Both the position numbers and the translations under genes were made by a program. A stretch of DNA of 23,874 bases, from IMG/VR virus record IMGVR_UViG_3300021440_000122, positions 1 through 23,874 of that record, one strand, 5' to 3'. Of this stretch, positions 26 through 23,636 are shown in pieces. Below the pieces are notes generated by a model. The model was given only the letters and a program-made list of their open reading frames with translations, did no database searches and was not told the DNA's origin. Numbering within the stretch: the stretch's first letter is position 1; every line of letters starts with the position of its first letter. The DNA comes from a virus.

Positions 26-1480
26 ATGCGCCCCTTTCTTTCACCGCGCAGGCCGAGGGTTGGAGCGACTGCGAGCGGGTCAACCACGCTGATCGGTGCG
101 TCTGACATCACGTACTTGGGAAAGTACTACCTGTCAGACCACAACGGTGGGTTTATCCATGGCTTCGGGCTGCGTCGCGTGGCGGGACAGGTGCGCTTCA
201 TGACGATGCAGCATTATCCGAATTCCAACATCGTCGAATGGGCCAAGCCGTCGAGCTACGATTCGACCATCACGTCATCGGATCGGACGAACAACTGGGA
301 TACCGCGTCGGTAATCAGCCAGCAGCAGGGAAGTCGGTCATCTCTGACGTGGGATTGGGCGCAGAACCGGCTGTGCATTTCTCAGGCGGTGGACTATGAC
401 GCCTATGTCGGCAACTTGCAGTTCTGCACGCTGTCGGAGGGAGGTTCAACCGTAACCAGTCCCAAGAAACTGACGCTTGAGAACGTGAATGACCGCCAAG
501 GCATGAGCGGAATTATGAACGTGCCGAGCGCCTTCCAGAGTGCGTACAGCTTTGAGCCGTACATTCTGGCAGGCGGTGGGTACTCCAGCAGGCAGGGCAG
601 CGCAACGACTTCTATGGGATTCTCCTGCTGGGCGTTTCCCAACTACGTGCCTTATCTGGCCTCATCGCCGAGCAATCCCGACATCAACACCGTGGGCGCG
701 ACAATACTGTCTAGCACGTATCGTCTGTGCTCTTACCACGATCATCAGAATCGCGGCGTTGTCGGCTGGTACAACTACACGGCGACGGCGGACGGGACGA
801 CCAACGACGACTACCCGCTGTATCCGTCGCACAACTCGGGTATGGGATCGACCGGCATCACCAACTACAACTTCACCGCCTCGCACTCATCGGGTGCTAT
901 TGGCCCTATCACGTACTATGACGGTGGCGATCCGCGAGACAATCCCGGCAGCGGTGTGAACCCTGTTGCAGCGCCAAAATTCATCCCGTTCACCACGGGT
1001 GGACCTACTGGCGGTTCGCCGTACTACAACTTCGCGCAGCCGTTCAACGTAGACAAGATGCACTGGTCATCGGGAACCGCGTACCCGTGGGTATGGGGCG
1101 ACATGTACTGCGGTGGCGCATTCCTGTACGGATCGAAGCGCGGCATTCTGCATGTCAATAACGCGATGCTAGGCAAGAACTACTACCACGGCAGCGCGGG
1201 CCACTTCGAGCAGCGCATGAACGAGCTGCACATAATCGACCCCATCGACATCAAGGATGCCGCCAACGGGTCACTTGATCCGACGACGATTCAGCCGACC
1301 TACATCATCCCGCTGGTGGAAACGCTGACCACGAACGGGATCGAGGACCAGTATCAGCCGACTACGGGCGCGGCCTACGACTACACCAGCAACATCCTGT
1401 ATGTGTGCGTCGGTCAGGGCGAAACTGGCCCCGGCGCGGTGCGTGACTTCATCATCTACGCCTATTCGGTGGCCGCATGA
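26..1480 (+). CDS. Phage structural-type protein of unknown function, beta-rich
   Basis: A 484-residue protein I do not recognise. After a short arginine/proline-rich N-terminus it is rich in Gly, Ser, Thr, Tyr, Trp and Asn with few charged residues and no long helices. This is typical of beta-structured phage appendage or receptor-binding proteins. No signal peptide or membrane segment is seen. The C-terminal part (about residues 395-484) has Asp/Ile-rich strands and ends in VAA. Its stop overlaps the start of the glycine-rich protein gene by 4 bases, so the two are probably translationally coupled and may work together at the virion surface. The start is uncertain: there is no clear Shine-Dalgarno site before this ATG, and the same frame stays open upstream to the window edge. 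Confidence 0.7.
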   Translation: MRPFLSPRRPRVGATASGSTTLIGASDITYLGKYYLSDHNGGFIHGFGLRRVAGQVRFMTMQHYPNSNIVEWAKPSSYDSTITSSDRTNNWDTASVISQQQGSRSSLTWDWAQNRLCISQAVDYDAYVGNLQFCTLSEGGSTVTSPKKLTLENVNDRQGMSGIMNVPSAFQSAYSFEPYILAGGGYSSRQGSATTSMGFSCWAFPNYVPYLASSPSNPDINTVGATILSSTYRLCSYHDHQNRGVVGWYNYTATADGTTNDDYPLYPSHNSGMGSTGITNYNFTASHSSGAIGPITYYDGGDPRDNPGSGVNPVAAPKFIPFTTGGPTGGSPYYNFAQPFNVDKMHWSSGTAYPWVWGDMYCGGAFLYGSKRGILHVNNAMLGKNYYHGSAGHFEQRMNELHIIDPIDIKDAANGSLDPTTIQPTYIIPLVETLTTNGIEDQYQPTTGAAYDYTSNILYVCVGQGETGPGAVRDFIIYAYSVAA

Positions 1481-2367
1481 GCACAGATGTTGATTACCTG
1501 CTGGTTGGCGGCGGTGGTGGTGGACATGATTCCGTAGGCGGTGGCGGTGGCGGTGGTGGCGTTGTTTCTGGAACAGCCACTGCACTTGCTGACGGCACCT
1601 ATGCCGTTGTCATCGGCGCAGGCGGAATCCATGAGTCGCAGTACACCACACCATCCTCTGCGAGCGACGGTGGCGATTCGACTTGGAACTCACTGACTGC
1701 CGGTGGCGGTGGTGGTGGCGGTGATCGTGACGCATTCACCGGAACGCATGTCGGTCGCGATGGTCGAGCGACAAACGGAAATGGCGGTGGTGGCGGTGGT
1801 GGAAACGGCGTTGTCGCAGGCGGTAGCGGGAATGGTTCTGGATACGCTGGCGGCAACGCTGACGGCGGAGCGGGAAATTCTCGTGGTGGCGGCGGTGGCG
1901 GCGCAGGTGCTGTAGGCGGGAACGCTGTTGACGCTGGCGCTCCTGGTGACGGCGGTGCGGGCGCGAGTAGCTCCATCAGCGGATCATCGGTCACTTATGG
2001 CGGCGGTGGTGGTGGCGGCGGTGCAAGTACGGGCGGTTCTGGCGGTTCTGGCGGTGGCGGTGCAGGCGGCACCAATTCCGCAGCAGCCACAGCGGGCACT
2101 GCAAACAAGGGCGGTGGCGGCGGTGGCGGTGGTCACGGTGGTGGTTCTGGCGCTGACGGCGGCACAGGCGTTGTCATCCTTCGCTACCTCACGGCGGCTG
2201 CATCGGCGACTGGCGGAACGATCACAACCAGTGGCAGCTACACCATTCACACGTTCACGTCGAACGGGAATTTCGTACTCACGGCGGCAGCAGCCGGAAT
2301 CACAGACCCCCAACTTCAAGCAATGTCGCGTGGTATGCCTCGCGGAATGAACAGAGGAATGAACTGA
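1477..2367 (+). CDS. Glycine-rich phage adhesin-like protein
   Basis: A 296-residue protein. It starts with a short hydrophobic strand (VDYLLV) leading into runs of 6-8 glycines, then strand segments alternating with Gly-rich blocks to about residue 230. The C-terminal part (about 228-270) has a GTGVVILRY strand followed by a TGGTITTSGSYTIHTFTSNG segment. This layout matches the glycine-rich domain family found in phage tail-tip and fibre proteins. In T4-like gp38 adhesins, comparable glycine runs pack as polyglycine II helices that present receptor-binding loops (family knowledge). The last residues are a MSRGMPRGMNRGMN tail, an Arg-Gly-Met near-repeat. The ATG overlaps the previous stop (ATGA). 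Receptor binding is inferred; the glycine-rich fold type is fairly secure. Confidence 0.8.
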   Translation: MSTDVDYLLVGGGGGGHDSVGGGGGGGGVVSGTATALADGTYAVVIGAGGIHESQYTTPSSASDGGDSTWNSLTAGGGGGGGDRDAFTGTHVGRDGRATNGNGGGGGGGNGVVAGGSGNGSGYAGGNADGGAGNSRGGGGGGAGAVGGNAVDAGAPGDGGAGASSSISGSSVTYGGGGGGGGASTGGSGGSGGGGAGGTNSAAATAGTANKGGGGGGGGHGGGSGADGGTGVVILRYLTAAASATGGTITTSGSYTIHTFTSNGNFVLTAAAAGITDPQLQAMSRGMPRGMNRGMN

Positions 2368-2368
2368 C

Positions 2369-3658
2369 ATGTATCAGCTTGCAAAATACGCCACGGCGAC
2401 AACGATTTACTTCAGCATGGTCAAGCGCGGGGTCGTTGACCTTGCGCAGTCTGCGGACTGGACGCCTGCCACGGGCGATACCAAGATCAGCATCAACGGC
2501 GGCACGCTTGCCAACACCACGAACAATCCCGCGATTGTCGCTGGCACCAATGGCGTGTTGTGGTCGCTGGCGCTCACTACGGGCGAACTGACTGGAGCGG
2601 ACATTCGCATTCAGATCGTCGATAGCGCGACCAAGGCTGTGGAAGATCAGTCTCTGACGGTCTACACGTACGGCAACGCGTCGGCGAAGATCGTGGCGGA
2701 CTACTCCACGGCAGCGCTCGGTGCGCTGATGCCGACAACCGCTGGCCGCACGCTGGACGTATCAACTGGCGGCGAGGCTGGAATGGATTGGGCGAACATT
2801 GGCAGCCCGACGACGACTGTGAATCTGTCCGGCACTAGTACTAAGGCGGTTGAGCCTACGGTTGCCGGCAGAACGCTGGACGTAGCGAGCACTGGCGAGG
2901 CGGGGCTGGACTTCAACAACGTCAACCTGCCGGTGGGTCCGGTGCCGGTGGTGGGCATCATCGAGAATGGCACGCTTCAGAGCGCGACCTCGACAACGGC
3001 GGTACTGCGAAGCGCGACCAACTTCGCTGACAACCTCATCAATGGCGCGGTCATCGTCATCACTGGCGGAACTGGTGCAGGCCAGACGCGCCTGATCGTG
3101 GCGAGCGTGAACAGCAGCGATACGGTCACTGTTGATCCCGCATGGACCACGACGCCGGACAATACTTCCACGTACATCGTGGCAGCCGCACCGCCAGCGC
3201 CAACGTCGAGCAGCTACCTGCAAACGGTCCTGCTGTCGGTGGGTACTGGCACGGGTCAGGTGAACCTGAGCAGCGGCAACGTACCGGCGACGGTTGCGGG
3301 CGCGGTGGGCTCGGTTACAGGCAACGTGGGCGGCAATGTCGTCGGCAGCGTGGGAAGTGTCACGGGGGCTGTTGGATCAGTGACCGGGAACGTAGGCGGA
3401 AACGTGGTGGGCACCGTGGCAGGCGTCACGCCAGCCACTACTGCCGGAATCCTCACCACCGCGCTTACCGAGTCCTACGCCGCAGACGGTGCAGCCGGAA
3501 CGCTGTCGCAAATTCTGTTCGGCTTGCAGGCATTCCTGCAGGAGCGGGCAGTGTCGGGCACAACGCTCACGGTCAAGAAATTGGACGGCAGCACCACGGC
3601 GATGACTTTCACGCTGAACGATGGCACCTCGCCGACAAGCCTGACCCGCGCAACCTGA
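2369..3658 (+). CDS. Phage structural-type protein with GSVTGNVGGNVVG repeats
   Basis: A 429-residue protein in three visible parts. Residues 1-100 are a beta-rich N-terminal domain of the type found at the start of phage baseplate or fibre proteins. Residues about 110-280 carry two copies of a motif around AGRTLDV followed by GEAG(M/L)D, and then a Gly/Thr/Val-rich domain. Residues about 305-350 are a low-complexity Gly/Val/Ser repeat, followed by a short C-terminal domain with a helix (GTLSQILFGLQAFLQERAV) and a strand-rich end. An AGAGGA-like ribosome site lies about ten bases before the ATG, inside the end of the previous gene. No enzyme motif is seen. A virion surface or fibre role is inferred from composition and from the neighbouring adhesin-like gene. 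Confidence 0.75.
   Translation: MYQLAKYATATTIYFSMVKRGVVDLAQSADWTPATGDTKISINGGTLANTTNNPAIVAGTNGVLWSLALTTGELTGADIRIQIVDSATKAVEDQSLTVYTYGNASAKIVADYSTAALGALMPTTAGRTLDVSTGGEAGMDWANIGSPTTTVNLSGTSTKAVEPTVAGRTLDVASTGEAGLDFNNVNLPVGPVPVVGIIENGTLQSATSTTAVLRSATNFADNLINGAVIVITGGTGAGQTRLIVASVNSSDTVTVDPAWTTTPDNTSTYIVAAAPPAPTSSSYLQTVLLSVGTGTGQVNLSSGNVPATVAGAVGSVTGNVGGNVVGSVGSVTGAVGSVTGNVGGNVVGTVAGVTPATTAGILTTALTESYAADGAAGTLSQILFGLQAFLQERAVSGTTLTVKKLDGSTTAMTFTLNDGTSPTSLTRAT
3308..3412 (+). repeat. Two copies of a 13-residue coding repeat, 66-base period
   Basis: The peptide GSVTGNVGGNVVG is encoded at 3308-3346 and again at 3374-3412, separated by a related GSV/GAV segment. The 13 residues are identical, yet 10 of the 13 codons differ by silent changes between the two copies. 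Confidence 0.85.
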
Positions 3659-3659
3659 T

Positions 3660-4160
3660 ATGGCCGCAGCGGACCTCATCAGCCTGGGAATTGGAAGCCC
3701 TGCCGGGATCAGGGCTTTCGTGCTGGTCGGGCTGTCGTCGGATGGCAGTGGGCCCCCGCCTACCCCGCCTCCTGCTGCCCAGAACTCTGGCGGTTACGGA
3801 TGGTGGCCCGACTTCGAGCACGTCCAGCGCCAGCGGGCCAAGCGCAAACGCGAGATCGAGGAGCTAGAGGCCGAGGCCGAGCGCATCGCCGACGCCACGA
3901 CACGGGAGATTTACCGCCTTGAGCGCGAACGCGATGCGAAAGAGGCCGACGCAGCTGATTTGGCGCGATTGCAGGCGCTGGCGGACCAGTACGCGGGCAA
4001 GGTGCAGGAACTGTCGAAAGACGCCCGTATTGCGATCCTGAACGCTCAGGACGCACGCACGCGCAACTCCCTGGAGCAAATGCGCCGCGTGGTCGAACGC
4101 GAGCTGAACGACGAAATGCTGGCGATCCAGCAGGTGGTTCTGCTGCTGATGGTGGATTGA
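3660..4160 (+). CDS. Small coiled-coil phage protein, function unknown
   Basis: A 166-residue protein starting one base after the previous stop. The first 50 residues are non-polar with a proline-rich stretch (GPPPTPPPAAQN) and a GGYGWWPDFEHV segment. From about residue 55 to 135 it is a highly charged, alanine/glutamate/arginine-rich helix with heptad-like spacing, clearly a coiled coil. It ends in a hydrophobic tail (MLAIQQVVLLLMVD). No catalytic motif or signal peptide is seen. It is the last gene before a 48-base gap and the scaffold gene. It could be a chaperone or minor structural partner of the appendage proteins encoded upstream; that role is inferred only from position. Confidence 0.7.
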   Translation: MAAADLISLGIGSPAGIRAFVLVGLSSDGSGPPPTPPPAAQNSGGYGWWPDFEHVQRQRAKRKREIEELEAEAERIADATTREIYRLERERDAKEADAADLARLQALADQYAGKVQELSKDARIAILNAQDARTRNSLEQMRRVVERELNDEMLAIQQVVLLLMVD

Positions 4161-4208: not shown

Positions 4209-5060
4209 ATGGAAAACACTGGCCTAGAGCCTGCGAACGCTGAAAACAATGCCCTTGCTGATGCAGCCCCGGTGGATACTGGGGCCGACGATGCAAGTGG
4301 TGCGGACCCTGCACCCGCTGCCGCTGAAACCGGCAAGCCTGACACCCGCGACAAGGTGCAGGAGCGTTTCGACAAACTCACACGCGAAAAGTACGAAGGT
4401 TTGAGCAGGGCCGAGCGTGCCGAATACCGAGCGCAGATGCTGGAACAGCAACTGGCGCAGTTTCAGGCACAAGCGCAAACACAGACGGTCGCGCCGTCCA
4501 ACGATTACCCCTCGCTCGAATCCGTTGGCTACGATGAAGCCAAGCACGCGACAGCCGTCGCCGCTTGGAGCGCAAAGCAGGCACGCGACGCCGCGAGGGC
4601 AGAGCTGCAAGCCGAACGCGAATCTGCAACACGCGAACAGACCTACCGGGAATGGGAGCGCAAGCAGGCTGAATTCATCAAGTCCAAGCCGGACTACGTG
4701 GAAAAGGTAGGCAGCCTGCCTCCAAGCCTGATGACAAACGCGCTGGCGGATGAAATCAAGGCAAGCCCGATGGGGCCGGAAGTGGCGTATTACCTGTCTG
4801 AAAATCTGGACAAGCTGGCAGCGATCAAAGACCTGCCGGCCAGACAACAGGCTCGCGAGATCGGACGTATTGAGGCAAGGCTTGAAGCACTGAAAGCTGC
4901 CCCGCCGCCTGTGAGTAAGGCACCGCCGCCACCTGCCAAGATTGAATCAGCCGCATCGACAGGTGCAGCCGATCCAACATCTCCCGATAGCGACAAAATG
5001 TCGGCAGATGAATGGCTAAAGCGGCGGGTGAAACAGGTACACAAACTCAATCAAAGGTAA
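4209..5060 (+). CDS. Head scaffolding protein, P22 gp8-like in type
   Basis: A 283-residue protein, close to the roughly 300 residues of P22 scaffold. It has an acidic, alanine-rich N-terminus (about 1-45) and a long charged helical region (about 55-160) rich in Glu, Gln, Arg and Ala. A proline/alanine linker (about 230-255) leads to a short basic C-terminal helix (DEWLKRRVKQVHKLNQR). In P22 a positively charged C-terminal helix-loop-helix of scaffold binds the coat protein (family knowledge). The gene sits directly before the coat gene, as expected for a scaffold. A GGAG site eight bases before the ATG supports this start. Sequence identity to a specific scaffold family was not tested. Procapsid assembly in the cytoplasm is the inferred role. 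Confidence 0.8.
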   Translation: MENTGLEPANAENNALADAAPVDTGADDASGADPAPAAAETGKPDTRDKVQERFDKLTREKYEGLSRAERAEYRAQMLEQQLAQFQAQAQTQTVAPSNDYPSLESVGYDEAKHATAVAAWSAKQARDAARAELQAERESATREQTYREWERKQAEFIKSKPDYVEKVGSLPPSLMTNALADEIKASPMGPEVAYYLSENLDKLAAIKDLPARQQAREIGRIEARLEALKAAPPPVSKAPPPPAKIESAASTGAADPTSPDSDKMSADEWLKRRVKQVHKLNQR

Positions 5061-5066
5061 CAAGTC

Positions 5067-6329
5067 ATGGCCGGTACAATTCTCACCCCTACGCAGATTC
5101 TCCGCGAATCCCAGCGGTATCTGCACGCCAATCTGAGCCTCATCGGCAACGTGCAGCGTGATTACGATGACCGTTTTGCAGGCAGTGGCGCAAAGCCGGG
5201 AACGTCACTGAACATTCGCCTGCCGCCGAAGTACGCCGCGCAGAACGGCGCGACCTACGTTGATCAGAACTACGTGGAACGCTCAACCCCGCTGACCTGT
5301 GCGACGCAGACTCACATCGGCGTGAGCTTCACCAGCGTTGACCTCACCATGTCGTTGAACGACTTTGGCGACAAGTTCCTGAAGCCGCAGATGGCGCAGC
5401 TTGCCTCGTACATCGAGGGTCAGTGCGCTGCCTACGCTTACAAGAAGATCGCCAACTACACGGGCACGACTTCCACCAGCATGACCTATCTGGCATTCCA
5501 GCAGAACGGCCAGCGCCTGACGGAAGCCCTTGCACCGACCTCTGACCGTGCCGCACTGGTCAACCCGCTGTCTGCCGTCAACTTCATGGACGCGACCAAG
5601 GGCTTGTTCCAGGACACCAGCGCGATCCGTGAGCAGTGGCGCGAGCGAATGATGGGTCGTACCGGCGGCTTCGACGTGTACGAAAACACGCTGATCCCGA
5701 CGCACACGATGGGCACGCTGGCGGGTACTCCGCTGACCACTGGCACCACGCTGGGCACGTCGACCACTGCGAATACATGGGTATCGCAGACCGATATGTC
5801 TGTTGACGGTGCGACTTCGGCGACCACGCTGAAGGCTGGCGACGTAATCACGTTCGGCACAACTGCTGCGGGTCTGGTGGATTGCCACCCTGAGACAAAG
5901 ACCAGCTACGGTCGCTTGAAGAACTTTGTCGTTCAGTCCGATGTGACGCTCTCGACCACGGCCAACGCCTACACGGTGACCGTCAAGCCGGGCGTCATCT
6001 ACGGCAGCGGCAATGCCTACCAGAATTGCATCCTCACCAACGCGAACACGGACAACATGACCGTGACGCTGTTTGGTGCGGCTGGCACTTCGGTCGGCCA
6101 GTCGTTGTTCCTGCACAAGGACTCCTTCGCGTTCGTTACCGCTGACTTGGAAGATGTCAGCAAGTACGGCGCATGGGGTGCGCGTGGCACGATGGACGGC
6201 ATTTCGATGCGTATTGCCCGCCAGTGGTCGGCATCGACCGACATCGTGGCGAGCCGCATTGACGTGCTTTGGGGCTTCGCTGAAATCTACCCAGAGCTGG
6301 CATCCCGCCACATCAACGCGCTGACCTAA
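5067..6329 (+). CDS. Major capsid protein, P22 coat-like
   Basis: A 420-residue protein, near the 430 residues of P22 gp5. The N-terminal segment (ILRESQRYLHANLSLIGNVQ), the DYDDRFAG and GTSLNIRLPP stretches, and the following segment with VSFTSVDLTMSLNDFGDKF match the P22 coat family in type and order (HK97 fold with an added I-domain, by family knowledge). The middle, about residues 215-330, is Thr/Gly-rich and beta-like, where P22 coat carries its inserted domain. The C-terminus has an RIARQWSASTDIVASRIDVLWGFA segment typical of these coat proteins. The gene directly follows the scaffold gene with a 6-base gap and an AAAGGTAAC ribosome site, and is followed by an intrinsic terminator. Confidence 0.92.
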   Translation: MAGTILTPTQILRESQRYLHANLSLIGNVQRDYDDRFAGSGAKPGTSLNIRLPPKYAAQNGATYVDQNYVERSTPLTCATQTHIGVSFTSVDLTMSLNDFGDKFLKPQMAQLASYIEGQCAAYAYKKIANYTGTTSTSMTYLAFQQNGQRLTEALAPTSDRAALVNPLSAVNFMDATKGLFQDTSAIREQWRERMMGRTGGFDVYENTLIPTHTMGTLAGTPLTTGTTLGTSTTANTWVSQTDMSVDGATSATTLKAGDVITFGTTAAGLVDCHPETKTSYGRLKNFVVQSDVTLSTTANAYTVTVKPGVIYGSGNAYQNCILTNANTDNMTVTLFGAAGTSVGQSLFLHKDSFAFVTADLEDVSKYGAWGARGTMDGISMRIARQWSASTDIVASRIDVLWGFAEIYPELASRHINALT

Positions 6330-6383: not shown

Positions 6384-7130
6384 ATGGCTTTCAAGAAAAG
6401 AGAAACGACCGAACCGGCCAAGCGGATTCACGCCTACGTAGCGACACCTGCATACGATGGGAGGGTGCTGACGGATTACGCTATTTCATTGGCCGAGAGC
6501 ATCCAGCACGCGACCTTACATGGCATACAGACAACTGCTGCCGTTATGGGGAATGGCGCATTCATCGAGCTGGCGCGGAATACTTTCGTTCAGCTTTTCC
6601 TGAAAACTGACTGCACTCACCTGTTTTTCATTGACGCTGACTTACGATGGGAGGCACGCGCCTATTCTGGCTTGCTGGCATCCGGCTTGCCGATTTGCGC
6701 TGGCGTGTACCCCAAGCGGCAAGACCCTGAAGAATTCCCATGCCACTGGATGAACAACGAAGATGGCACCATCCAGATGGCTGAATCATGGGTAGTTTGT
6801 GATCGTGTTCCCACTGGCTTTCTGTGCATCGAGCGCCGGATTGTCGAGGAAATGGTCAAGGACTGCCGGATGATCGGCGCGAAAACGGAAGTTTCCGAGA
6901 CGCAGCCCTACCTGTTTGAGACATACATCAACGAGCGCAGTGATTTCGTCGGCGAGGACTTCGCATTCTGCGCCAAGTACGTCGAAAAGTACGGGCGCGG
7001 CATCCCTGTCTATCCTGATTTCAACTTCACGCATGGCGTGCGGTGGAAAGGCAACATGCACGAATGGTTGAACAAGCTGGCAGAAACTGCACAGGCGAAG
7101 CAGGCTGCCGAGACATCGGTGGCCGCATGA
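6384..7130 (+). CDS. Glycosyltransferase-like protein (GT-A type)
   Basis: A 248-residue protein with features of a GT-A fold sugar transferase. There is a first strand with HAYVATPAYDG (16-26). A hydrophobic strand ends in the acidic motif FFIDADL, with DAD at 84-86, the position of the nucleotide-sugar/metal-binding DxD. A CAGVYPKR segment follows (105-112), then VPTGFLCIERRIVE, a GED motif at 190-192 (candidate catalytic acid region) and a histidine (H217) after a strand pair. There is no signal peptide or membrane anchor, so it acts in the cytoplasm. An AAGAGGA site precedes the ATG. It overlaps the methyltransferase-like gene by 4 bases. The substrate is unknown: a virion protein, modified DNA or a cell-surface glycan are all possible. 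Confidence 0.8.
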   Translation: MAFKKRETTEPAKRIHAYVATPAYDGRVLTDYAISLAESIQHATLHGIQTTAAVMGNGAFIELARNTFVQLFLKTDCTHLFFIDADLRWEARAYSGLLASGLPICAGVYPKRQDPEEFPCHWMNNEDGTIQMAESWVVCDRVPTGFLCIERRIVEEMVKDCRMIGAKTEVSETQPYLFETYINERSDFVGEDFAFCAKYVEKYGRGIPVYPDFNFTHGVRWKGNMHEWLNKLAETAQAKQAAETSVAA

Positions 7131-7663
7131 ATGCGGTACTGAAGCCAGCCGAATACAGCGAACTGCTGATCGGCTGCGGCAACAGCCGAAAGAAGAAGGT
7201 CAAGCATGGCAATATCAGTCAGGAATGGCTGAACCTGACCACGCTGGATATCGACCCCAACTGCAAGCCGGATGTATTGCACGACTTGTCGAAGCTGCCG
7301 CTTCCGTTTGCAGACGAATCATTCGACGAGGTTCACGCCTATGAGGTGCTGGAGCACATGGGCGCACAAGGCGACTGGCGAGCGTTCTTCGACTTGTTCG
7401 CGGAGCTGTATCGCATCCTGAAGCCCGGTGGATTGCTGATCGGATCATGTCCGATGTGGGATTCCCCGTGGGCATGGGGCGATCCAGGGCATACCCGCAT
7501 CGTCAACAAGACCCAACTGCTGTATCTGAACCAGAAGCTCTATGAGGAAGTCGGCACCAACAGCCTGACCGACTATCGGCACTATTGGAAGGGCGATTTC
7601 GACATGCTGGCCCATGTTGAGCAGCCGGATACGTTCGGCTTTGTTCTGAAGGCGGTGAAATAA
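7127..7663 (+). CDS. Class I SAM-dependent methyltransferase-like protein
   Basis: A 178-residue protein showing the class I methyltransferase pattern: a short glycine loop LLIGCGNS (13-20), an acidic end of strand 2 (DID, 41-43), PDVLHDL (48-54) before PFADESFDEV, the central YEVLEHM (72-78) and the LKPGG turn (98-102). The start is set at the ATG that overlaps the glycosyltransferase stop (ATGA); a longer reading from 7043 would overlap the upstream gene by 88 bases. The pattern resembles the Methyltransf_11 type acting on small molecules or sugars more than a DNA methylase, as no DPPY/NPPF motif is seen. Coupled expression suggests that it methylates the product or substrate of the sugar transferase; that is inference. 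Confidence 0.82.
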   Translation: MNAVLKPAEYSELLIGCGNSRKKKVKHGNISQEWLNLTTLDIDPNCKPDVLHDLSKLPLPFADESFDEVHAYEVLEHMGAQGDWRAFFDLFAELYRILKPGGLLIGSCPMWDSPWAWGDPGHTRIVNKTQLLYLNQKLYEEVGTNSLTDYRHYWKGDFDMLAHVEQPDTFGFVLKAVK

Positions 7664-8067
7664 TGCAACTACTCGACCTCATCACGCAATCGCTGCGGTC
7701 CATTGGCGTGGTTGACGTGACGGAATCTCCGAGTGCGGAGGCCGGTGCCAATGCGCTGATCAACCTCAATAACCTGATGGCGACGCTGGCGGAAGATGGC
7801 ATTGACTTGGGCTACACCGCGACCTCGACCATTACGGACGACTTCGCGTTGTCGGCAGGCCATGTGGGCACGATTGAGGCGCTGCTGGCGATGAAAGAGG
7901 CGTCGGATCGTGGCATTGCGCCTTCTGCAACGCTTTCAGGTATGGCTGATAGTGGCTACCGGCGCTTGCTGTTGCAGGCGCAGAAGCTGGCGATGCAGCC
8001 CGCGTCGCTGTCTGGCGTATCGCATGGGCTCGGATCGTTGCCACCGTACAACATCTTGACCGGATGA
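7663..8067 (+). CDS. P22 gp4-like head-completion / tail accessory factor
   Basis: A 134-residue, mostly helical protein. The N-terminal helix (LLDLITQSLRSIGVV), the central NLNNLMATLAEDGIDLGY, and the later helix with AMKEASDRGIAP and YRRLLLQAQKLAM fit the P22 gp4 type of adaptor that binds the portal after DNA packaging (166 residues in P22). The start overlaps the previous stop by one base (TAATG). The gp10-like protein gene follows directly, as in P22. Some related proteins also carry a muramidase activity, but no catalytic residue can be assigned here. Confidence rests on gene order as much as on sequence. Confidence 0.75.
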   Translation: MQLLDLITQSLRSIGVVDVTESPSAEAGANALINLNNLMATLAEDGIDLGYTATSTITDDFALSAGHVGTIEALLAMKEASDRGIAPSATLSGMADSGYRRLLLQAQKLAMQPASLSGVSHGLGSLPPYNILTG

Positions 8068-8068
8068 C

Positions 8069-9508
8069 ATGGGAGCACTACCGCTACCGATTGCGTCCTA
8101 TCAGTTATCGTCGCCGGTAGGCTCATCGGCGCGGCTGGTCAACTGCTTTTCATCGCCAGCGCCTCAGGGCGGAAAGTCGGCGGTCATCATCACCCGTTCT
8201 GCGGGTATCGCCACCTTCGCCAATCTCGACTCCAGCGGCGCGGCTGGCGGGCGTGGCGCGATCAACATGAACGGCGTGCTCTATGCGCTGGTGCATGAGA
8301 CGCTGTACCGCGTGGATTCTGCGGGCGCTGGCACCAATGTCGGCACGATCACCGGCACCGGGCGCGTGCGGATGGCGACCAACGGGACAAACTTCGTCAT
8401 CGTGCGCCCATCGGATAACGTGGGGTTCTGGTGCAACGGTTCGGCCACGACGCAGATCACGGATGCCGTGTTCACCGGTTTCGGCGCGGCGGACGTGGAA
8501 TTCATCCACGGCTACTACATATTCCGCCGACCCAGCACCGGCCAATTCTTCCAGTCGCAACTGAACGAAACCTCCTTCACCGACTTCGACGCGGCAGACA
8601 TTGCCGAAGCCGAGCAGGTGCCGGATAACCTCGTTGCGCTTGGCGTGGATCACGAAGAAGTATTGCTGTTTGGCACTGCGTCTGCTGAGGTGTGGTACGA
8701 CGCCGCGAACGACACGGGTTCATCCTTCAGCAAGTCCCCTGGCGGTCTGGTGTCGCTCGGCATTGCGGGCTCTGAGTCGCACGGCAAGCAGGACAACTCG
8801 ACGTTTTGGCTGGCGAATGACCGGACTATCCGCAGGCTGACCGGAGCGACGCCGCAGAAGGTGTCACAGTGGGGTATCGATACGCAGTTGAACAAGCTGA
8901 CTACGATCAGCGACTGCTATACCGTGCCATTCATTCAGGAAGGGCACATGATGCTGGCGTTCGTGCATACCACGGACGAGCGGACATTTGTCTATGACTG
9001 CACAACGCAGCAGTGGCACGAGCGGTCATCGTATGTCAGCGCCAGCAGTTCCACTCGGCAGCGGCAGTGGCGCGTGTCGCATTGCGTCGAGTGCTACGGC
9101 AAGCAGATCGTTCTGGATACGCTCAGCGGGAAACTCGGATATCTGTCCACGGAAACGCTGGACGAATGGGGCAACCCGCTGCGCATGTCATGGACGTATC
9201 AGCCGGTTTACGCGAAGAACAATCTGGCGATTCACCGACGGTTTGAGATCGTCTGCAACGTCGGGCATGGGCTGGCGAGCGGGCAGGGCTCTGATCCCAA
9301 GGTGACGCTTGAGATTTCCGACGATGGCGGCGAGACGTGGCGCACGATGCCTGAGCGGTCGCTGGGGCTGCGCGGTCAGTACAAGGCCAATGTGTTCTGG
9401 GACATGCTCGGCAGCGCTCGGCAGCGGGTCTATCGCGTCACGATCACTGATCCGATCCCTGTGATGGTGGTCGATACGCAACTGACCGTTGAAGGAGCGG
9501 CGTGGTAA
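8069..9508 (+). CDS. P22 gp10-like packaged DNA stabilisation protein (tail hub)
   Basis: A 479-residue protein against 472 in P22 gp10. It begins MGALPLPIASYQLSSPVGSS, has early NCF and APQGGK motifs and a chain of beta-blade-like segments such as GVLYALVHETLYRV, and contains LVALGVDHEEVLLFG, VWYDA and FWLANDRTIRRL. This matches the phage stabilisation family, a beta-propeller hub that plugs the portal channel and anchors the tail appendages (family knowledge). The C-terminal region has a DPKVTLEISDDGGETW segment. It starts one base after the gp4-like stop. Its end overlaps the fibre-like gene start by one base (TAATG). Confidence 0.85.
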   Translation: MGALPLPIASYQLSSPVGSSARLVNCFSSPAPQGGKSAVIITRSAGIATFANLDSSGAAGGRGAINMNGVLYALVHETLYRVDSAGAGTNVGTITGTGRVRMATNGTNFVIVRPSDNVGFWCNGSATTQITDAVFTGFGAADVEFIHGYYIFRRPSTGQFFQSQLNETSFTDFDAADIAEAEQVPDNLVALGVDHEEVLLFGTASAEVWYDAANDTGSSFSKSPGGLVSLGIAGSESHGKQDNSTFWLANDRTIRRLTGATPQKVSQWGIDTQLNKLTTISDCYTVPFIQEGHMMLAFVHTTDERTFVYDCTTQQWHERSSYVSASSSTRQRQWRVSHCVECYGKQIVLDTLSGKLGYLSTETLDEWGNPLRMSWTYQPVYAKNNLAIHRRFEIVCNVGHGLASGQGSDPKVTLEISDDGGETWRTMPERSLGLRGQYKANVFWDMLGSARQRVYRVTITDPIPVMVVDTQLTVEGAAW

Positions 9509-10791
9509 TGGCTGCGCGAGGCTTCGACAAGATCGCGCTTCGAGTCCCTGAACAATGGGATGCGGAGTGGTATCGCCGCCATTTCCGTGACGTGCTGGCC
9601 AAGGGTGACGCACGGAACGTCATCCCCGCTGGTGGCCTGAGTGTGACCGGCAACACTGACGAACCGGCGACGCTCACCGGCAGCCCTGACGTGGCGACGC
9701 TGATGGCGCTACCGTTCGTGCTCACGGCCAACTCTGGCAGTGTGGCGAACGAACGCAAGCTGACCGGAAGTAGTACGGTCACGGTTACGGACGGTGGCGC
9801 CAATGGCAATGTGACGCTGACGATCCCCGATGATGGTGTCACTTACGCGAAGATGCAGAACATCTCGGCGACTTCGCGCTTTCTCGGTCGCATCTCATCG
9901 GGCGCGGGCGATACGGAAGAGTTGACGCCAGCCAATGCGACCTCGCTGCTCAACACCTTCACCAGCAGCTTGCAGGGGCTTGTCCCGGCTTCTGGTGGCG
10001 GCACGACTACCTTTCTGCGGGCCGATGGGTCTTTCACCCAAGTATCGCTATCGACTGGCGTCACCGGCACGCTGGCCGACGGGTCGCTGTCCAGCAATGT
10101 TCCGCTGAAGAATGCGGCGAATACGTTTACTGCTGGGCAGACCATCAATGCTCCGGCGAGCACGGTTGGGTTGACACTCGCGGGCGCGGCCAACGCCGCG
10201 ACTCTGATCGCACAGGGGTCATCTACCACTGGCCAATCCTACGGGATTCAGTCGCTCGGCGGCACGAACGCATCAGACCAATCATTCGGTGCATACAACC
10301 GATCAGGCGGAACGCTGTTTTTCAGCGTGGCCGGTGATGGTGGGATCATTGGCGGTTCTCCCACGGGCGGCAACAAGGGCGCGGGAACGATCAACGCGCA
10401 GGGGCTCTACGTCAACGGCGTGGCGGTCAGCACGTCGACCAGTGGCACCGACGGCACATGGACCGGCACACTGACGAACATATCTGGCATGTCTGGCGTG
10501 ACCGTGCATCAGGGTTGGTATACCCGCGTTGGCGACACCGTGACGTGTGGCGCGGTCATTGACTGCACAGCAGCGGTTGGCGCGTTCAGTTTCTATCTGA
10601 CGATCCCTGTGGCGTCCGCCTTTACGCAGTACTACCACGCATCGGGATCAGCGACCTACAACAACGGCAGCGTGGTGATTCCGGTTGAGGTTGTCGCGTA
10701 CCCGGCAACGGATGCGCTGCTTTTCACGGGAATACTTGGCACGGTCGGTGCCGGCGAAATCAGTTTCACCGCGATATATCGCGTGATATGA
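9508..10791 (+). CDS. Tail fibre / needle-type protein in the P22 gp26 position
   Basis: A 427-residue beta-rich protein. Residues 1-40 form a helical, charged N-terminus (PEQWDAEWYRRHFRDVLAKG) likely to attach to the virion. Next comes a fibre region with phage-fibre signatures: VTYAKMQNISATSRFLGRI, GAGDTEELTPA and TTFLRADGSF. From about 310 there is a C-terminal domain (GTWTGTLTNISG through YYHASGSATYNNG) ending in FTAIYRVI, which resembles the compact beta domain that closes many phage fibres. The ATG at 9508 has a GAAGGAG site ten bases upstream. A GTG at 9502 is also possible but leaves only four bases after that site. The position between gp10-like and ejection genes matches the P22 tail needle, but the sequence looks more fibre-like. 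Confidence 0.72.
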   Translation: MAARGFDKIALRVPEQWDAEWYRRHFRDVLAKGDARNVIPAGGLSVTGNTDEPATLTGSPDVATLMALPFVLTANSGSVANERKLTGSSTVTVTDGGANGNVTLTIPDDGVTYAKMQNISATSRFLGRISSGAGDTEELTPANATSLLNTFTSSLQGLVPASGGGTTTFLRADGSFTQVSLSTGVTGTLADGSLSSNVPLKNAANTFTAGQTINAPASTVGLTLAGAANAATLIAQGSSTTGQSYGIQSLGGTNASDQSFGAYNRSGGTLFFSVAGDGGIIGGSPTGGNKGAGTINAQGLYVNGVAVSTSTSGTDGTWTGTLTNISGMSGVTVHQGWYTRVGDTVTCGAVIDCTAAVGAFSFYLTIPVASAFTQYYHASGSATYNNGSVVIPVEVVAYPATDALLFTGILGTVGAGEISFTAIYRVI

Positions 10792-13330: not shown

Positions 13331-15344
13331 ACTGCCGCCGCTGCCAGCAGGCTTTACGCTGGATCAGCAGCCTAGCGGACTGCCGCCGTTGCCGCCGGGG
13401 TTCACGCTTGATAATGCTGCGCCGCCAAGCCAGCCAGTGACCGCATCAAACCGATGGAATGCGGCAATGGCCGGACTAAATAGAGGCGTTGCAGGCGTGC
13501 TCGGTTTTCCGATGGATACCGCCGCAAACCTGCGCGACTTGGCTGCCGCTGGCGCGGGAATGATTGTCAGCGGCGTGACCGGGAAAGCGCCGCCTTCCAT
13601 GTTCGATCCCATAGACAGGGCGAGCCAGTACGGCACGTCAGAAAACATTGCTCGACTGATGGACAAGTGGAGGCAGACATCCACGCAGGTAGAACGCCCA
13701 GACGATCCAGCATCACGATACTTGTATGCAGGCGGGGCTGGCCTTGCAGGCGGTGCATTGCTTGGACCGGCAACTGGGGCGAGCGTAATCCCGTCTGCAT
13801 TATCCAACGCTGCGGGTTCAGTGGCCGCGCAAGTGGCCGCAGAGAATGGCGCTGGCCCATTGGGGCAAACGCTTGCAGGCATGGTAGGCGGCGCGGCTCC
13901 ATCTGCTCTGCGCTATGGTGCACAAGCCGGAGCGCGTGCGGTTGCGCGAGGCGGCGAGGATGGGCGGCTACAGACTGCGCAGAACATTGCGGATTTCCAG
14001 CAGGCCGGCGCTTTCCCGTCAGTCGGTCAAGCAACCGGAACGCGGCGTATGCAGGCGGCAGAATCCGTTGCAGCAAAGGCACCCGGATCGGCTGGCGTCA
14101 TGGCCGCTGCCAGCAAGAATCAGGCAGCGGATATTGGCGGTAACATTGATCGGCTGGCAAACTCGTTATCGCCAGCAGCTAGCGGTGAGCAGGCCGGACG
14201 CGCCATTGTCAAAGGCGTTACGGGTGAAGGCGGATTCCTTCAGCAGTTCAAGGACAAGACTGCTGCGAACTACAGCGCACTGGACAAGTTCGTCAACAAG
14301 TCTCAACTGGTAGATGTATCCAACACGGCAAAGACATTGGATGATCTTTCCGCAACCATTCCAGGGGCTGAAAACACCTCAGCAGCATTTGCAAATTCAA
14401 AGATTGCATCTATCCGTGATGCGCTTCAATCTGACTTGAGTTCGAACAGCAGGCAAAACAATCCTGCCATTCTTCAGAACGGCGGCAACGGGTTGCCATA
14501 CGATGCAGTTAAAAAGCTGCGGACTATCGTCGGCAACGAACTGGCAGACGCTCCTTTTTCTGGAGACGTTCCGGTATCTCAGTGGAAAAAGTTGTACGCG
14601 GCCATGTCTACGGATATGGAGGCAGCAGCGAAGTCGGCTGGGCCAGAAGCAGAAGCCGCGCTCTCGCGGGCCAACAAGTTCCATGCCGCAGGAATGAAAC
14701 GGCTTGACGTTATCAGCTCAGTGATCGAAAAGAATGGCGGGCCGGAAGCGGTATTCCGTGCTGCAACTTCCGGTGCGAAAGAGGGCGCAACGACGCTTAG
14801 AGCAGTCATGCAGAGTCTGCCTGAAGATGGACAGAAGGCAGTTTCTGCCGGAGTGCTTCGGCGGCTCGGCAAGGCGAACGCGGGCGCACAGAATGCCGCT
14901 GGCGATGCCTTCTCTACAGAGACATTTCTGACCAACTGGAATTCAATGTCACCTGAAGCGAAAACCGCGCTGTTTAACAGGTACGGTGACGGTTTCAGGC
15001 AGGACATGGATGCAGTTGCGCGTGTGGCAGACAACCTTCGCCAAGGGTCATCCGTATTCCGCAATCCGTCAGGCACTGCCGCTGCAAATGCGCAACTCGG
15101 AGCGGGCGCGGCTTTTATCGCGGCGCTGGCGAGCGGAAACTACAAGACGGCATTAGGGGTTGCGGCTGGCGTCGGTACAGCGAATGTGGGCGCTCGCGTG
15201 CTGACAAACCCCACGGCAGTGAAATGGCTGGCGATGACTACACGGGCACCGCAGAGCGCTATTCCCGCTATTCTCGCTCAGGCCATGCTGTCGAAAGACC
15301 CTGATATCCGCGCTGCCGCTATGGCAGTAAAGAACAGCCAATGA
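13320..15344 (+). CDS. Large DNA ejection protein (third of three, P22 gp16-like in type)
   Basis: A 674-residue protein (P22 gp16 has 609). The N-terminus carries two copies of a proline motif (residues 5-15 and 21-31). Residues about 45-215 are Ala/Gly-rich with hydrophobic stretches (LYAGGAGLAGGALLGPATGA, AGMVGGAAPSALRYG) that could enter a membrane. The rest is Ala-rich helices with many Asn and Gln, and a hydrophobic LGAGAAFIAALASG followed by a VAAGVGTAN segment near the C-terminus. This composition, the size and the place just before the tailspike-like gene support an ejection protein that crosses or lines the envelope channel. It begins inside the end of the previous gene and its stop overlaps the next start (ATGA). 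No murein hydrolase motif is seen. Confidence 0.65.
   Translation: MAGELPPLPAGFTLDQQPSGLPPLPPGFTLDNAAPPSQPVTASNRWNAAMAGLNRGVAGVLGFPMDTAANLRDLAAAGAGMIVSGVTGKAPPSMFDPIDRASQYGTSENIARLMDKWRQTSTQVERPDDPASRYLYAGGAGLAGGALLGPATGASVIPSALSNAAGSVAAQVAAENGAGPLGQTLAGMVGGAAPSALRYGAQAGARAVARGGEDGRLQTAQNIADFQQAGAFPSVGQATGTRRMQAAESVAAKAPGSAGVMAAASKNQAADIGGNIDRLANSLSPAASGEQAGRAIVKGVTGEGGFLQQFKDKTAANYSALDKFVNKSQLVDVSNTAKTLDDLSATIPGAENTSAAFANSKIASIRDALQSDLSSNSRQNNPAILQNGGNGLPYDAVKKLRTIVGNELADAPFSGDVPVSQWKKLYAAMSTDMEAAAKSAGPEAEAALSRANKFHAAGMKRLDVISSVIEKNGGPEAVFRAATSGAKEGATTLRAVMQSLPEDGQKAVSAGVLRRLGKANAGAQNAAGDAFSTETFLTNWNSMSPEAKTALFNRYGDGFRQDMDAVARVADNLRQGSSVFRNPSGTAAANAQLGAGAAFIAALASGNYKTALGVAAGVGTANVGARVLTNPTAVKWLAMTTRAPQSAIPAILAQAMLSKDPDIRAAAMAVKNSQ
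13332..13427 (+). repeat. Two 48-base coding repeats (LPPLPxGFTLD)
   Basis: Residues 5-20 and 21-36 of the large ejection protein are a tandem pair sharing LPPLP(A/P)GFTLD, then diverging (QQPSG against NAAPP). Codons differ between copies. The motif may be a short linear binding signal at the exposed N-terminus; that role is a guess. Confidence 0.8.
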
Positions 15345-16294
15345 CCGGCATCCTGCACCTTGACCCCGCATCCAAGCCGCGTGACGTGTTCGGCAGGGCT
15401 ATGCCGTATGCGACGCTGACGTTTCTGCGCACGGGCACGGACGAAGTGCTGGCGACCTATACGGCGGACAGCGCGGGCGTATTCGCCACCATCACGCCGT
15501 CATTCGATACCTACGTCTATCGCGTGCAATTGAAGGATGCAGCGGGCGTGCTCCGCTATGACGTGGACCCGTACCGCGCGGGGTATTCGACCTACGTTGA
15601 CGCACGGTCGCAGCGGCTGGAAAGCGGTGCCATTGTGCCGAATACCTCGTACACGTTCACCACGGATGGCACAACGTTGAAGTCCATCTATGCGGATGAC
15701 GCGATGACGGTGCAGCATCCGAACCCGATCAAGACCGATTCCAGCGGACTGCTGCCACCCATCTACCTGACGCCAGCCGAGTACTTCATCACCCGTGGCG
15801 GCGGTGGCGGTGGGTCTACCTACTTCCCCGGCGTCACCTATCCGGCAGATGAAACCCTGATAGGCGGCACGGTTGTGTTTGTGGCAGCGGCCATCTCAGG
15901 CGCTGGCGGAAGCTCAACCCGCGGGTACAACAGCGCCACGGCAGCCAACTGGATCGGCAACCCGACAACCTGCGCCGCAGCCGGGACGCTCACATCCGGC
16001 AGAATCGCGGGAAAGACAGACTTCGGCATCGGCACCTATGTCGGCTCCGGCTTCGAGCTGAGCGTGCGTATCCGTGTCACCACTGGCACCGAGCGTGCCT
16101 CACCGCAGACGGCCTACTTTACGGGCCTGACCATCGCAGGGATCAAATCAGGCGCGACTGCTGCGGGGGCGGCATTCGTCACGGATACCACCTCAGACGT
16201 AGGCTACACAACCTACAAATGGGTCTGGTCAGGAGGTAGCGCCCCATCGGCACTGATGGCAAACGCGACCGGCTACACCGCCGTTTTCACTTAG
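15341..16294 (+). CDS. Tailspike-adaptor-like protein with two related N-terminal domains
   Basis: A 317-residue beta-rich protein. Residues about 15-68 (PYATLTFLRTGTDEVLATY through YRVQLKDAAGVLRYDVDPY) have the pattern of the small attachment domains at the start of podovirus tailspikes and fibres. Residues about 82-150 (SGAIVPNTSYTFTTDGTTL, then YADDAMTVQHPNPIKTDSSG and LLPPIYL) look like a second copy of the same type. A short glycine run (GGGGGG, about 152-157) leads to a Thr/Gly-rich C-terminal domain. There is no long right-handed beta-helix or enzyme domain as in P22 gp9, so it may be an adaptor or a short non-enzymatic spike. It overlaps the preceding stop by 4 bases (ATGA). Confidence 0.68.
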   Translation: MTGILHLDPASKPRDVFGRAMPYATLTFLRTGTDEVLATYTADSAGVFATITPSFDTYVYRVQLKDAAGVLRYDVDPYRAGYSTYVDARSQRLESGAIVPNTSYTFTTDGTTLKSIYADDAMTVQHPNPIKTDSSGLLPPIYLTPAEYFITRGGGGGGSTYFPGVTYPADETLIGGTVVFVAAAISGAGGSSTRGYNSATAANWIGNPTTCAAAGTLTSGRIAGKTDFGIGTYVGSGFELSVRIRVTTGTERASPQTAYFTGLTIAGIKSGATAAGAAFVTDTTSDVGYTTYKWVWSGGSAPSALMANATGYTAVFT

Positions 16295-21923: not shown

Positions 21924-22039
21924 ACCGCCCCCAGCACCGCCACGGCCAGCAGGATGCCAAACACCCAGCCCAGCCACGGGAAGCTGATGACCAGGCCGAT
22001 GATGCAGACGGCCAGCAGCAGGCTAAAGAACAGCTTCAT
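21920..22039 (-). CDS. 39-residue membrane protein (hairpin or single span)
   Basis: Almost the whole protein is hydrophobic: MKLFFSLLLAVCIIGLVIS, a turn with FPWLGW, then VFGILLAVAVLGAV. It could be two short spans joined at the Pro-Trp-Gly turn, or one long one. The ATG overlaps the stop of the 526-residue gene by one base (TGATG). The longer frame from 22138 lies inside that gene. Function is unknown. Confidence 0.68.
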   Translation of the reverse strand: MKLFFSLLLAVCIIGLVISFPWLGWVFGILLAVAVLGAV

Positions 22040-23619
22040 CAGTCCCACCTGTCTAGTAAATAGTCGAGAGATTTTCCGCCACTGGTAACGCGGAATACGT
22101 GTGCCCATGTGCCGCCTTTCTGCAACCCAATCCCGCACGCAGAGCCATCTTCCATACCAGAAATCTCAGATCCACGCGAATAGGATTCGATCACAGACCG
22201 GATGCCGTGAAACTCCGACTTCATGCATTCCGGGAACAATGCCGCACCAGACTGGCGTGTCTCGCGAGCATCCTTTAAGAGAAATATCACGCCTTCCCCG
22301 TGTTGCGGGAAACTGCCATGCCACATGGATGGCTTCATGGTGACAGCGGACACGTCGCACATAGCGCCAGTTGTGAGGCCAAACTGCTCTGGAGACGATC
22401 CGCCGTGCCAGAAGTACCACGACACCGGGTTGCGATGCTCCAGCGTATCCCATTGAAGGATGGGCGGCGCATCTGGATCAACGGCAGTGACCAGCACCAT
22501 AAAGGCATCCCGAGATGCCCGCGCATGGAACTGGATGCGATCCGCAGTAGGCAGAACCTGCTGAGAAAACTTCGCCCATGTCATCGTAAGTGGCGGAATC
22601 TTCATGTCCGGCGCGGGAGTCGCGTTCTTGGATTTCAGGTGGCTGAATACTCCGGCCTGGGGTTTTGACTCGGTGGCTGTGGCCTTCGGAAGCCATATCG
22701 GCGTCACATCTTCCACGCGAGCAAACCGGCGTGCCAACGATCCGGCAGCGCCCATCTCGGCAACGATCTTCTCTGCCTGTGCGATAGCCCCGGCATTTGG
22801 CGCAGATTGTGGGCGCTGGTACTGAAGTGGGTGCATCTTCGATTTCCAGCGGCGAGACACTTCCGCGAAATCCATGCCCGCAGCGATGTCCTCCAACAGC
22901 GTTCCAACCATTGAGGATCGAGGATGGCAGAATCCAGCCGGGGCCGTAGCAATACCCAGCCACACTACGTTGTTATAGTTCAGGGCTGTTGCCTTGGCGG
23001 CATGTAGGTCGTACAGGAACTGAGCTGGTCCGATGACCTTCTCTGCCCGAGCAAGTGAATCCGTCTTGAGCAGAGTCATGGCCTGTTCAACCATTGGCAT
23101 GGTGAACTCCGCCAGAGCCCGCTTGACGTTGATGTAGTCCTCACGCTTCTCCGCCATCGCTTGGCCTGCGGTTTGCGTAGTGCGTGCGAATACCTTTGGC
23201 ATCGTTACCGACAGATGCCGCCACTGTCCTGTGACTGGAGTCCCAAGTTCCTTGTTAGAGGATAGAAACACCCCCGTCACCTTGGCCTTGCGGACGATTT
23301 TCGCCATAGCGCCTATGGCTTTCTTGTATTCCTCCGGCGCGTCATCTACATTCCAAACGGCGGGCGTCGTGATGCCGCGCTCATCAATCGTCACCAGGCC
23401 AGCCCAGCGTTCAATGTAATGTCGGCAAGCGTGGCAGTTGTGGTGCTGGCGGTCGGCGTCGCCAAAAGACGATAAATACGCATCCCACAAACCCGAAGCG
23501 TCTGTAGTGAATAGCGGTCCAGTCGCATTGCTGGCGAACCTGGCATTAACCCTATCCAGAAATGCGTGATAATCCTGATCGTCTACGTTGCCGATTACCG
23601 GCGATGCTGCGCTTTTCAT
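22039..23619 (-). CDS. Large orphan phage protein (526 residues)
   Basis: The only large gene of the minus strand, and one I cannot assign. Visible parts: an N-terminal region with HHNCHACRHYIERWAG (a CxxC next to histidines, a possible zinc site); YKKAIGAMAKIVRKAKVTGVF; a helical region with EDYINVKRALAEFTMPMVEQA; ALNYNNVVWLGIATAPAGFC; and MHPLQYQRPQSAPNAGAIAQ then AEKIVAEMGAAGSLARRFARVED. A C-terminal beta-rich, Trp-containing part (WYFWHGGSSPEQFGL, WHGSFPQHGEGVIFLL) follows. No polymerase, helicase or nuclease motif is evident. The ATG at 23619 has GGAG five bases upstream; the GTG at 23640, which overlaps the upstream stop, is an alternative. Confidence 0.75.
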   Translation of the reverse strand: MKSAASPVIGNVDDQDYHAFLDRVNARFASNATGPLFTTDASGLWDAYLSSFGDADRQHHNCHACRHYIERWAGLVTIDERGITTPAVWNVDDAPEEYKKAIGAMAKIVRKAKVTGVFLSSNKELGTPVTGQWRHLSVTMPKVFARTTQTAGQAMAEKREDYINVKRALAEFTMPMVEQAMTLLKTDSLARAEKVIGPAQFLYDLHAAKATALNYNNVVWLGIATAPAGFCHPRSSMVGTLLEDIAAGMDFAEVSRRWKSKMHPLQYQRPQSAPNAGAIAQAEKIVAEMGAAGSLARRFARVEDVTPIWLPKATATESKPQAGVFSHLKSKNATPAPDMKIPPLTMTWAKFSQQVLPTADRIQFHARASRDAFMVLVTAVDPDAPPILQWDTLEHRNPVSWYFWHGGSSPEQFGLTTGAMCDVSAVTMKPSMWHGSFPQHGEGVIFLLKDARETRQSGAALFPECMKSEFHGIRSVIESYSRGSEISGMEDGSACGIGLQKGGTWAHVFRVTSGGKSLDYLLDRWD

Positions 23620-23636
23620 TGTTGCTCCAGTGTTGT

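Follow-up and report, generated by a model that had tools for sequence, protein, structure and literature searches.

What do four genes packed directly ahead of the head scaffold gene of a P22-coat phage encode? The question is raised by IMG/VR record IMGVR_UViG_3300021440_000122, a linear genome fragment of 23,874 b (the window, meaning the whole stretch that was analysed), in which four plus-strand open reading frames (ORF1 to ORF4) fill positions 26-4160 immediately before the scaffold and P22-type coat genes. The block is read here, with a probability of roughly 0.6, as a cassette for virion appendages within the late (head/packaging) operon of a phage with a P22-type coat; the core of the cassette would be a two-component fibre of ORF3 and ORF4. 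The simplest account is a movable late-operon cassette of this kind, in which ORF3 would form the shaft of the fibre and ORF4 would accompany it.

An appendage-like gene block at this place had been claimed from the bare sequence (the sequence-only reading), and ORF positions, family matches and codon usage confirm it. ORF1 and ORF2 overlap by 4 nt, the gaps between ORF2 and ORF3 and between ORF3 and ORF4 are 1 nt each, and the scaffold gene begins 48 nt past ORF4. By a codon-usage model built from seven late genes of the window outside the block, the annotated frame of each of the four ORFs outscores its five alternatives (0.24 to 0.40), the best competing frame scoring 0.08 for ORF2 and below zero for ORF1, ORF3 and ORF4. 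ORF1 is rich in Gly (11%), Ser (10%) and Thr (8%), ORF2 contains 36% Gly, ORF3 contains 17% Thr and 12% Gly, and ORF4 contains 13% Lys plus Arg and 6% Gly.

ORF3 and ORF4 as a gene pair

The genes for ORF3 and ORF4 behave as a unit. ORF3 ends in a conserved domain of about 70 amino acids (aa), represented by alignment A1 (71 columns), and the first ~28 residues of ORF4 form a motif, which can be summarised from the seed alignment as approximately MaxxdLIxxGiGsxxxIxxxVtxGL. For discovery, 76 genes encoding the domain were reduced to 68 non-redundant ones, 66 of which have at least 120 nt of downstream sequence. The motif starts within 250 nt after the ORF3-type gene in 49 of these 66 loci, always between -3 and +36 nt relative to the final base of the stop codon. 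The motif model had been seeded with 14 loci including the window, all of which match, and the count becomes 35 of 52 when they are removed; ORF4 of the window, itself a seed, carries the motif and begins one base beyond the ORF3 stop codon. Elsewhere in the discovery set the motif occurs in 5 among 55,533 ORFs, two of which (L090 and L101) are also downstream of a domain gene. With the motif model frozen, 73 new loci, after removal of 8 overlapping earlier ones, gave 58 non-redundant genes, all testable. The motif follows in 48 of these 58 (46 between -9 and +10 nt, the other two at 159 and 214 nt), although the hold-out contigs, drawn from the kinds of phage already in the discovery set, are not independent in descent. 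Two negligible matches were found elsewhere among 12,982 ORFs.

The ORF3 C-terminal domain was found with A1 in 70 IMG/VR loci, and the members are 51-71% identical to the window across the 71 columns; the window, being among the seeds, carries the domain by construction. With a second alignment (A5), 162 stretches encode a relative of the domain, of which 80 were kept. Searches of 50,697 GenBank phage records by tblastn with three domain members gave no match at the sensitivity used. A control with the same queries and database size, and with the low-complexity filter on, recovered 73-75 of 75 domain-bearing fetched loci. A scan of GTDB genomes with one narrow pattern of the domain found none.

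ORF3 appears to be modular. It consists of an immunoglobulin (Ig)-like N-terminal domain (residues ~1-100), a middle beta domain (~195-275), a repeat stretch and the conserved C-terminal domain (~359-429). Its structure was predicted from alignment A3 (35 sequences) with a mean pLDDT (predicted local distance difference test) of 68 and a pTM (predicted template modelling score) of 0.32; ten-residue pLDDT means are 60-94 in residues 1-100, 74-97 in 201-280 and 74-87 in 381-429. As regards ORF3, this model agrees with the beta-rich character assigned to it by the sequence-only reading. In a fold search, residues 190-276 matched five chains of gene transfer agent (GTA), baseplate and tailspike proteins at Z 6.9-10.9, with root-mean-square deviations (rmsd) of 2.6-5.7 over 77-98 residues. 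Among them are the GTA particle chain 6tba_7A (Z 10.9, rmsd 2.6, 87 aligned), the R4C baseplate chain 8gtc_P (Z 9.3, rmsd 4.7, 96 aligned), the JBD30 baseplate chain 8rk3_O (Z 8.3, rmsd 5.7, 92 aligned) and the tailspike depolymerase 24qj (Z 8.1, rmsd 3.1, 77 aligned). Foldseek comparison with the PDB gave nothing below E 0.001, and comparison with BFVD gave 18 matches, many of which concern a single domain of 70-90 residues and some of which carry the name tail protein or pectate lyase.

ORF4 is composed of the N-terminal motif, a Pro-rich linker, a coiled coil and an acidic, then hydrophobic C-terminus. Homologues are encoded in L040 (E 4.9e-17), MW202691 (E 3e-14) and L003 (E 2e-4), and the C-terminal parts of ORF4 proteins vary greatly among phages. 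The homologues at L040 416-1093 and L042 257-913 are nearly identical in the N-terminal part and different in the C-terminal part, and that of L040 contains a PASTA domain (E 2.6e-12). PASTA domains bind peptidoglycan fragments.

ORF3 and ORF4 matched nothing above cut-off in Pfam or NCBIfam and nothing at E 0.01 in PHROGs. Several weak candidates were set aside: AAA_22 for ORF3 (E 0.098; 13.4 bits, cut-off 27), sub-threshold NCBIfam matches to ORF4 and to one ORF3 homologue, and a match of A1 to PDB entry 8fre, 'RBL4', over 29 residues (E 0.0015), which we take to be a designed protein.

Position of the pair and the portal-scaffold boundary

The late operon of P22 runs TerS-TerL-portal-scaffold-coat, and the tailspike gene is at its far end. 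The window is similar in that a P22-type coat gene lies behind and adjacent to the scaffold gene, as in a P22-type head operon, and is followed by Hc3 and DNA-ejection genes (phrog_578 and phrog_598). Unlike in P22, the appendage block stands directly before the scaffold gene, so that the preceding gene is ORF4 and not portal. The departure from P22 order noted by the sequence-only reading thus holds for the window, but inserts at the portal-scaffold boundary are found in several phages of the group. Neither portal nor terminase was recognised on the 23,874-b window. Both may lie just beyond the left contig edge, in which case the block would be between portal and scaffold and need not replace them.

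Among 83 GenBank phage records matched by coat, 14 were opened. The scaffold gene starts within 100 nt of the portal end in eight of them and at distances of 428 and 621 nt in two others, and MT192033 was not resolved. The remaining three (DSL-LC05, MW202483 and MW202691) contain 3.1-5.2 kb of extra genes between portal and scaffold: a pectate-lyase tailspike in DSL-LC05, and an 844-aa protein with a Gly_rich_2 protein in MW202483. Similarly, a GH16 enzyme is encoded there in L003 and LamG in L153. Alignment of the coat protein led to 80 IMG/VR loci, 48 of which show portal upstream. The interval from portal end to coat start exceeds 1.4 kb in 19 of the 48, and seven of these intervals look appendage-like by eye (L146, L149, L153, L160, L169, L175 and L176), with Pfam support for such content in L153 only. 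The long intervals of L110, L115, L127, L131, L136 and L152 look like artefacts of ORF calling or frame.

Placement of the pair was examined in 125 non-redundant domain loci, window included, using query genes drawn from the loci of this analysis, some picked by eye. A terminase, portal or major capsid protein (MCP) gene is on the same strand as the pair in 73 of them. The pair lies upstream of TerL or portal in 57 of these 73 placeable loci, and the portal-scaffold position as its normal home was dropped for this reason. It comes after MCP in six and after TerL or portal without a recognised MCP in five; in two, the window and L225, it precedes MCP with no portal on the contig, and L225 has the same architecture as the window. 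Of 44 records behind pair loci, 14 were found to have the P22-type portal phrog_156, which shows that the pair also occurs outside P22-type phages.

Three IMG/VR loci with P22-type coats (L206, L208 and L235) show the order portal, other ORFs, ORF3, ORF4, scaffold-like ORF and coat, as in the window. L208 and L235 have one small ORF after ORF4, before the scaffold-like ORF, and ORF4 of L206, missed by the motif model, was recognised by eye. L007 has the same gene order with a different head type. In L003, portal is followed by the GH16 enzyme, a beta protein, an ORF3 homologue without the end domain, an ORF4 homologue without the motif, a scaffold-like gene and a coat gene of PF13252. Apart from the matches given, several of these gene maps were read by eye. 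High divergence among relatives, which the sequence-only reading had offered as a check of its proposal, is seen: ORF1 has no relatives in the searches made, and cassette content varies between relatives.

The block and its neighbours in the window

Coordinates are collected in Table 1. The frame of ORF1 is open leftward to base 2 of the contig, so its true start is uncertain. ORF1 gave no usable match by tblastn in GenBank phages, in pattern scans of IMG/VR and GTDB genomes, or in Pfam, PHROGs, NCBIfam and PDB sequences; the best phmmer match in the fetched loci has an E value of 0.53. ORF2, on the other hand, matches Gly_rich_2 at 67.5 bits (curated cut-off 24.3) and phrog_2295 at E 1.7e-38, and is thus the polyglycine-type protein that had been suspected. 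MW202483 encodes a relative of ORF2, annotated there as 'baseplate wedge protein gp6', between portal and scaffold; further relatives lie upstream of scaffold in L178, where portal was not found on the contig, and after coat in MW202674 and MW202520.

Table 1. Positions in the window of the block, its conserved parts and the adjoining head genes
Feature	Coordinates	Strand	Basis or remark
ORF1, Gly/Ser/Thr-rich orphan, 484 aa	26-1480	+	start uncertain; placed in the cassette by position and composition only
ORF2, polyglycine protein Gly_rich_2, 296 aa	1477-2367	+	PF21722, phrog_2295
ORF3, modular fibre-like protein, 429 aa	2369-3658	+	alignments, predicted structure, fold search
ORF3 conserved C-terminal domain, marker of the pair	3443-3655	+	alignment A1
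ORF4, coiled-coil protein, 166 aa	3660-4160	+	homologues in L040, MW202691 (L033) and L003
ORF4 N-terminal motif, accompanies the ORF3 C-terminal domain	3660-3740	+	motif model
Head scaffolding protein, right border of the block	4209-5060	+	phrog_8865, E 1.9e-31
P22-type coat protein	5067-6329	+	PF11651, E 2.3e-29

The coat gene is followed by a conserved ORF (6384-7130) that has no Pfam match and looks glycosyltransferase-like by eye, and then by an ORF for a Methyltransf_11 protein (Pfam; 7127-7663). Relatives of one or both follow coat in L002, L013, MW202691 and MW202573, and by eye also in L105-L107; the products may modify the virion. At the right end of the window, the minus strand contains a 542-aa ORF (22039-23667). 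Two annotations of coat relatives also deserve mention. In MW202674 (L030, 10001-11516) the P22 coat is annotated as two coding sequences with a small ORF between them, which may reflect an intervening element or a frameshift. In MW202655 (L035, 9142-10065) the scaffold position is annotated on the minus strand only, whereas the plus strand contains a scaffold-like ORF there; the annotation is probably wrong.

Relation to known systems and competing explanations

In T-even phages of the T2/S16/PP01 type g37 directly precedes g38, and the putative shaft gene ORF3 is likewise followed directly by its partner gene ORF4. In T2, gp38 contacts gp37 through its N-terminus and contains hypervariable regions (PMC12892980); the conserved ORF3 end and ORF4 start, with a variable remainder of ORF4, are similar in logic to such a gp37-gp38 tip. 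Unlike the glycine-rich gp38 of T-even phages, ORF4 is a coiled coil with little glycine and not a polyglycine (PGII) partner; the polyglycine gene of the window precedes the shaft gene, and the pair is found among head and packaging genes. A1 and A3 gave no relevant match among PDB sequences, so that no sequence relation to solved structures was found, and the fold search leaves room for a structural homology. On present evidence, ORF3-ORF4 is probably not a member of the T-even gp37/gp38 family.

The head fibre gene of phi29 (gp8.5) is near the capsid gene, as are the putative fibre genes of the window. The head fibres of phage 7-7-1 are described as making early host contact (PMC12796354), a role that the products of the block may share. 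No sequence relation of the block to phi29 gp8.5 or the 7-7-1 head fibres was detected by Pfam. Nothing resembling the pair was seen among the papers listed for head fibres; the pair, being nameless, allowed no search by name, so that this is no proof of its absence in print. Known phages with counterparts by position are DSL-LC05, which is assigned to the proposed 'Luchaoviridae' in a passage of its description (PMC10611076), and MW202483; both have appendage genes between portal and scaffold, the presumed place of the window block. They differ from the window in the proteins encoded there, as described above, and an ORF3 homologue was found in neither.

If the appendage cassette reading is right, ORF3 would form a shaft with an Ig-like base, a spacer, a beta domain of baseplate/tailspike fold, a repeat stretch and the conserved end domain. 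ORF4 would be the constant partner, its short N-terminal motif probably docking on the ORF3 end domain and its C-terminal part being exchangeable, and ORF2 and ORF1 would be additional surface proteins. The cassette, probably between portal and scaffold, would then serve initial cell contact in addition to a normal fibre (9502-10791) and a short spike-like protein (15341-16294), the latter showing weak similarity to the start of a tail spike gene in MW202691 (E 4e-4). The sequence-only reading had suggested a second adsorption apparatus or head decoration, which would explain why the short spike-like protein lacks an enzyme domain; this last link is a guess. The appendage nature gains support from the counterparts at the same boundary and from the fold of the ORF3 middle domain; a role of the products in adsorption and their presence on the virion may be supposed.

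Several observations weigh against the cassette reading. By the placement test, 52 of the 125 loci gave no head gene, and the pair is certainly between portal and MCP in only 3 of the 73 placeable loci; with 57 upstream of TerL or portal, the layout of the window is a minority one. The closest coat relative found, L105 (63%), as well as L106 and L107 (both 56%), lacks the block between portal and scaffold; the contig of a fourth close relative, L002 (59%), begins too near the coat gene to judge. L105 contains a 356-aa ORF (7096-8166) overlapping the portal end, ahead of scaffold, which does not look appendage-like, and L105 and L107 have beta-rich ORFs upstream of terminase, all by eye. One ORF of L107 there ends like ORF4 and another has a sub-threshold PASTA match (E 0.0034). 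The linkage fails in 17 of the 66 discovery loci and in 10 of the 58 hold-out loci; by eye, several of the former (L011, L039, L056, L090, L101 and L102) show a look-alike in place or farther on, and most of the latter have a look-alike start. ORF1 is without relatives in the searches made, and its single-sequence AlphaFold model (pLDDT 30) is useless. As for the predicted ORF3 structure, unrelated ubiquitin-activating enzymes match the same middle stretch at Z ~6, many Ig-like domains resemble the N-terminal domain at Z ~6, a similarity that is not distinctive, and the fold search barely tested the C-terminal domain. Values of Z near 8 may reflect common folds, and a shared fold shows no function.

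Where such a fibre would be attached, and what ORF4 would do, can be read in other ways. The pair and the whole block might encode fibres or decoration of the head, attached to the capsid and not to the tail, as would fit the shared strand and locus with terminase, portal or MCP genes in the 73 placeable loci, the position of the pair in the long-tailed phage L083 between MCP and head-tail/tail genes, away from tail-tip genes (by eye), and the existence of flagella-contacting head fibres in phage 7-7-1 (PMC12796354). This is somewhat doubtful, because the fold search linked the ORF3 middle domain, possibly a general module, with baseplate and tailspike proteins, and because the pair of L048 comes after tail and lysis genes (by eye), a placement that also fits poorly with a head/packaging cassette. 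ORF4 might instead be an assembly chaperone of ORF3 that is left out of the virion and is not a tip, just as T4 gp38, which is released after assembly according to a passage of PMC12892980, serves gp37. A small coiled-coil protein encoded right behind a fibre gene would suit such a role, but the great differences among ORF4 C-terminal parts, one with a PASTA domain, would be odd for a pure chaperone and make it unlikely.

The block might also be an assembly of unrelated accessory genes at a tolerated insertion site, ORF3-ORF4 alone being a unit. The inserts at the portal-scaffold boundary are indeed diverse, the 19 long intervals of the 48 portal-bearing loci including the clearly different insert of L105 and apparent ORF-calling artefacts; seven of the 19 are appendage-like by eye (one with Pfam support) and polyglycine proteins recur, so that this explanation is about as doubtful as capsid attachment. 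Genes for non-structural proteins would hardly be expected in a late operon with fibre-type domains and enzyme-bearing counterparts, and this alternative is very improbable.

The reading of the block as an appendage cassette can be tentatively extended, with less confidence than the cassette itself. ORF3-ORF4 might represent a kind of two-component virion fibre that is widespread among uncultivated tailed phages and has so far gone undescribed. A conserved docking pair (a shaft end of ~70 aa and a partner start of ~28 aa) would permit swaps of ORF4 effectors (coiled coil, PASTA or short repeats). The cassette would move between boundaries of head/packaging operons, and in the phage of the window it may form a second, capsid-borne adsorption apparatus.

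Surface fibres largely set the host range of phages, and many of those in uncultivated phages escape easy recognition from their sequence. The ORF3 end domain and the ORF4 motif provide a short paired marker for a fibre-like system without a library model above cut-off, and one of the sites that receive such cassettes is the portal-scaffold boundary in phages with a P22-type coat. If ORF4 is an exchangeable tip, the pair would be a natural plug-in system.

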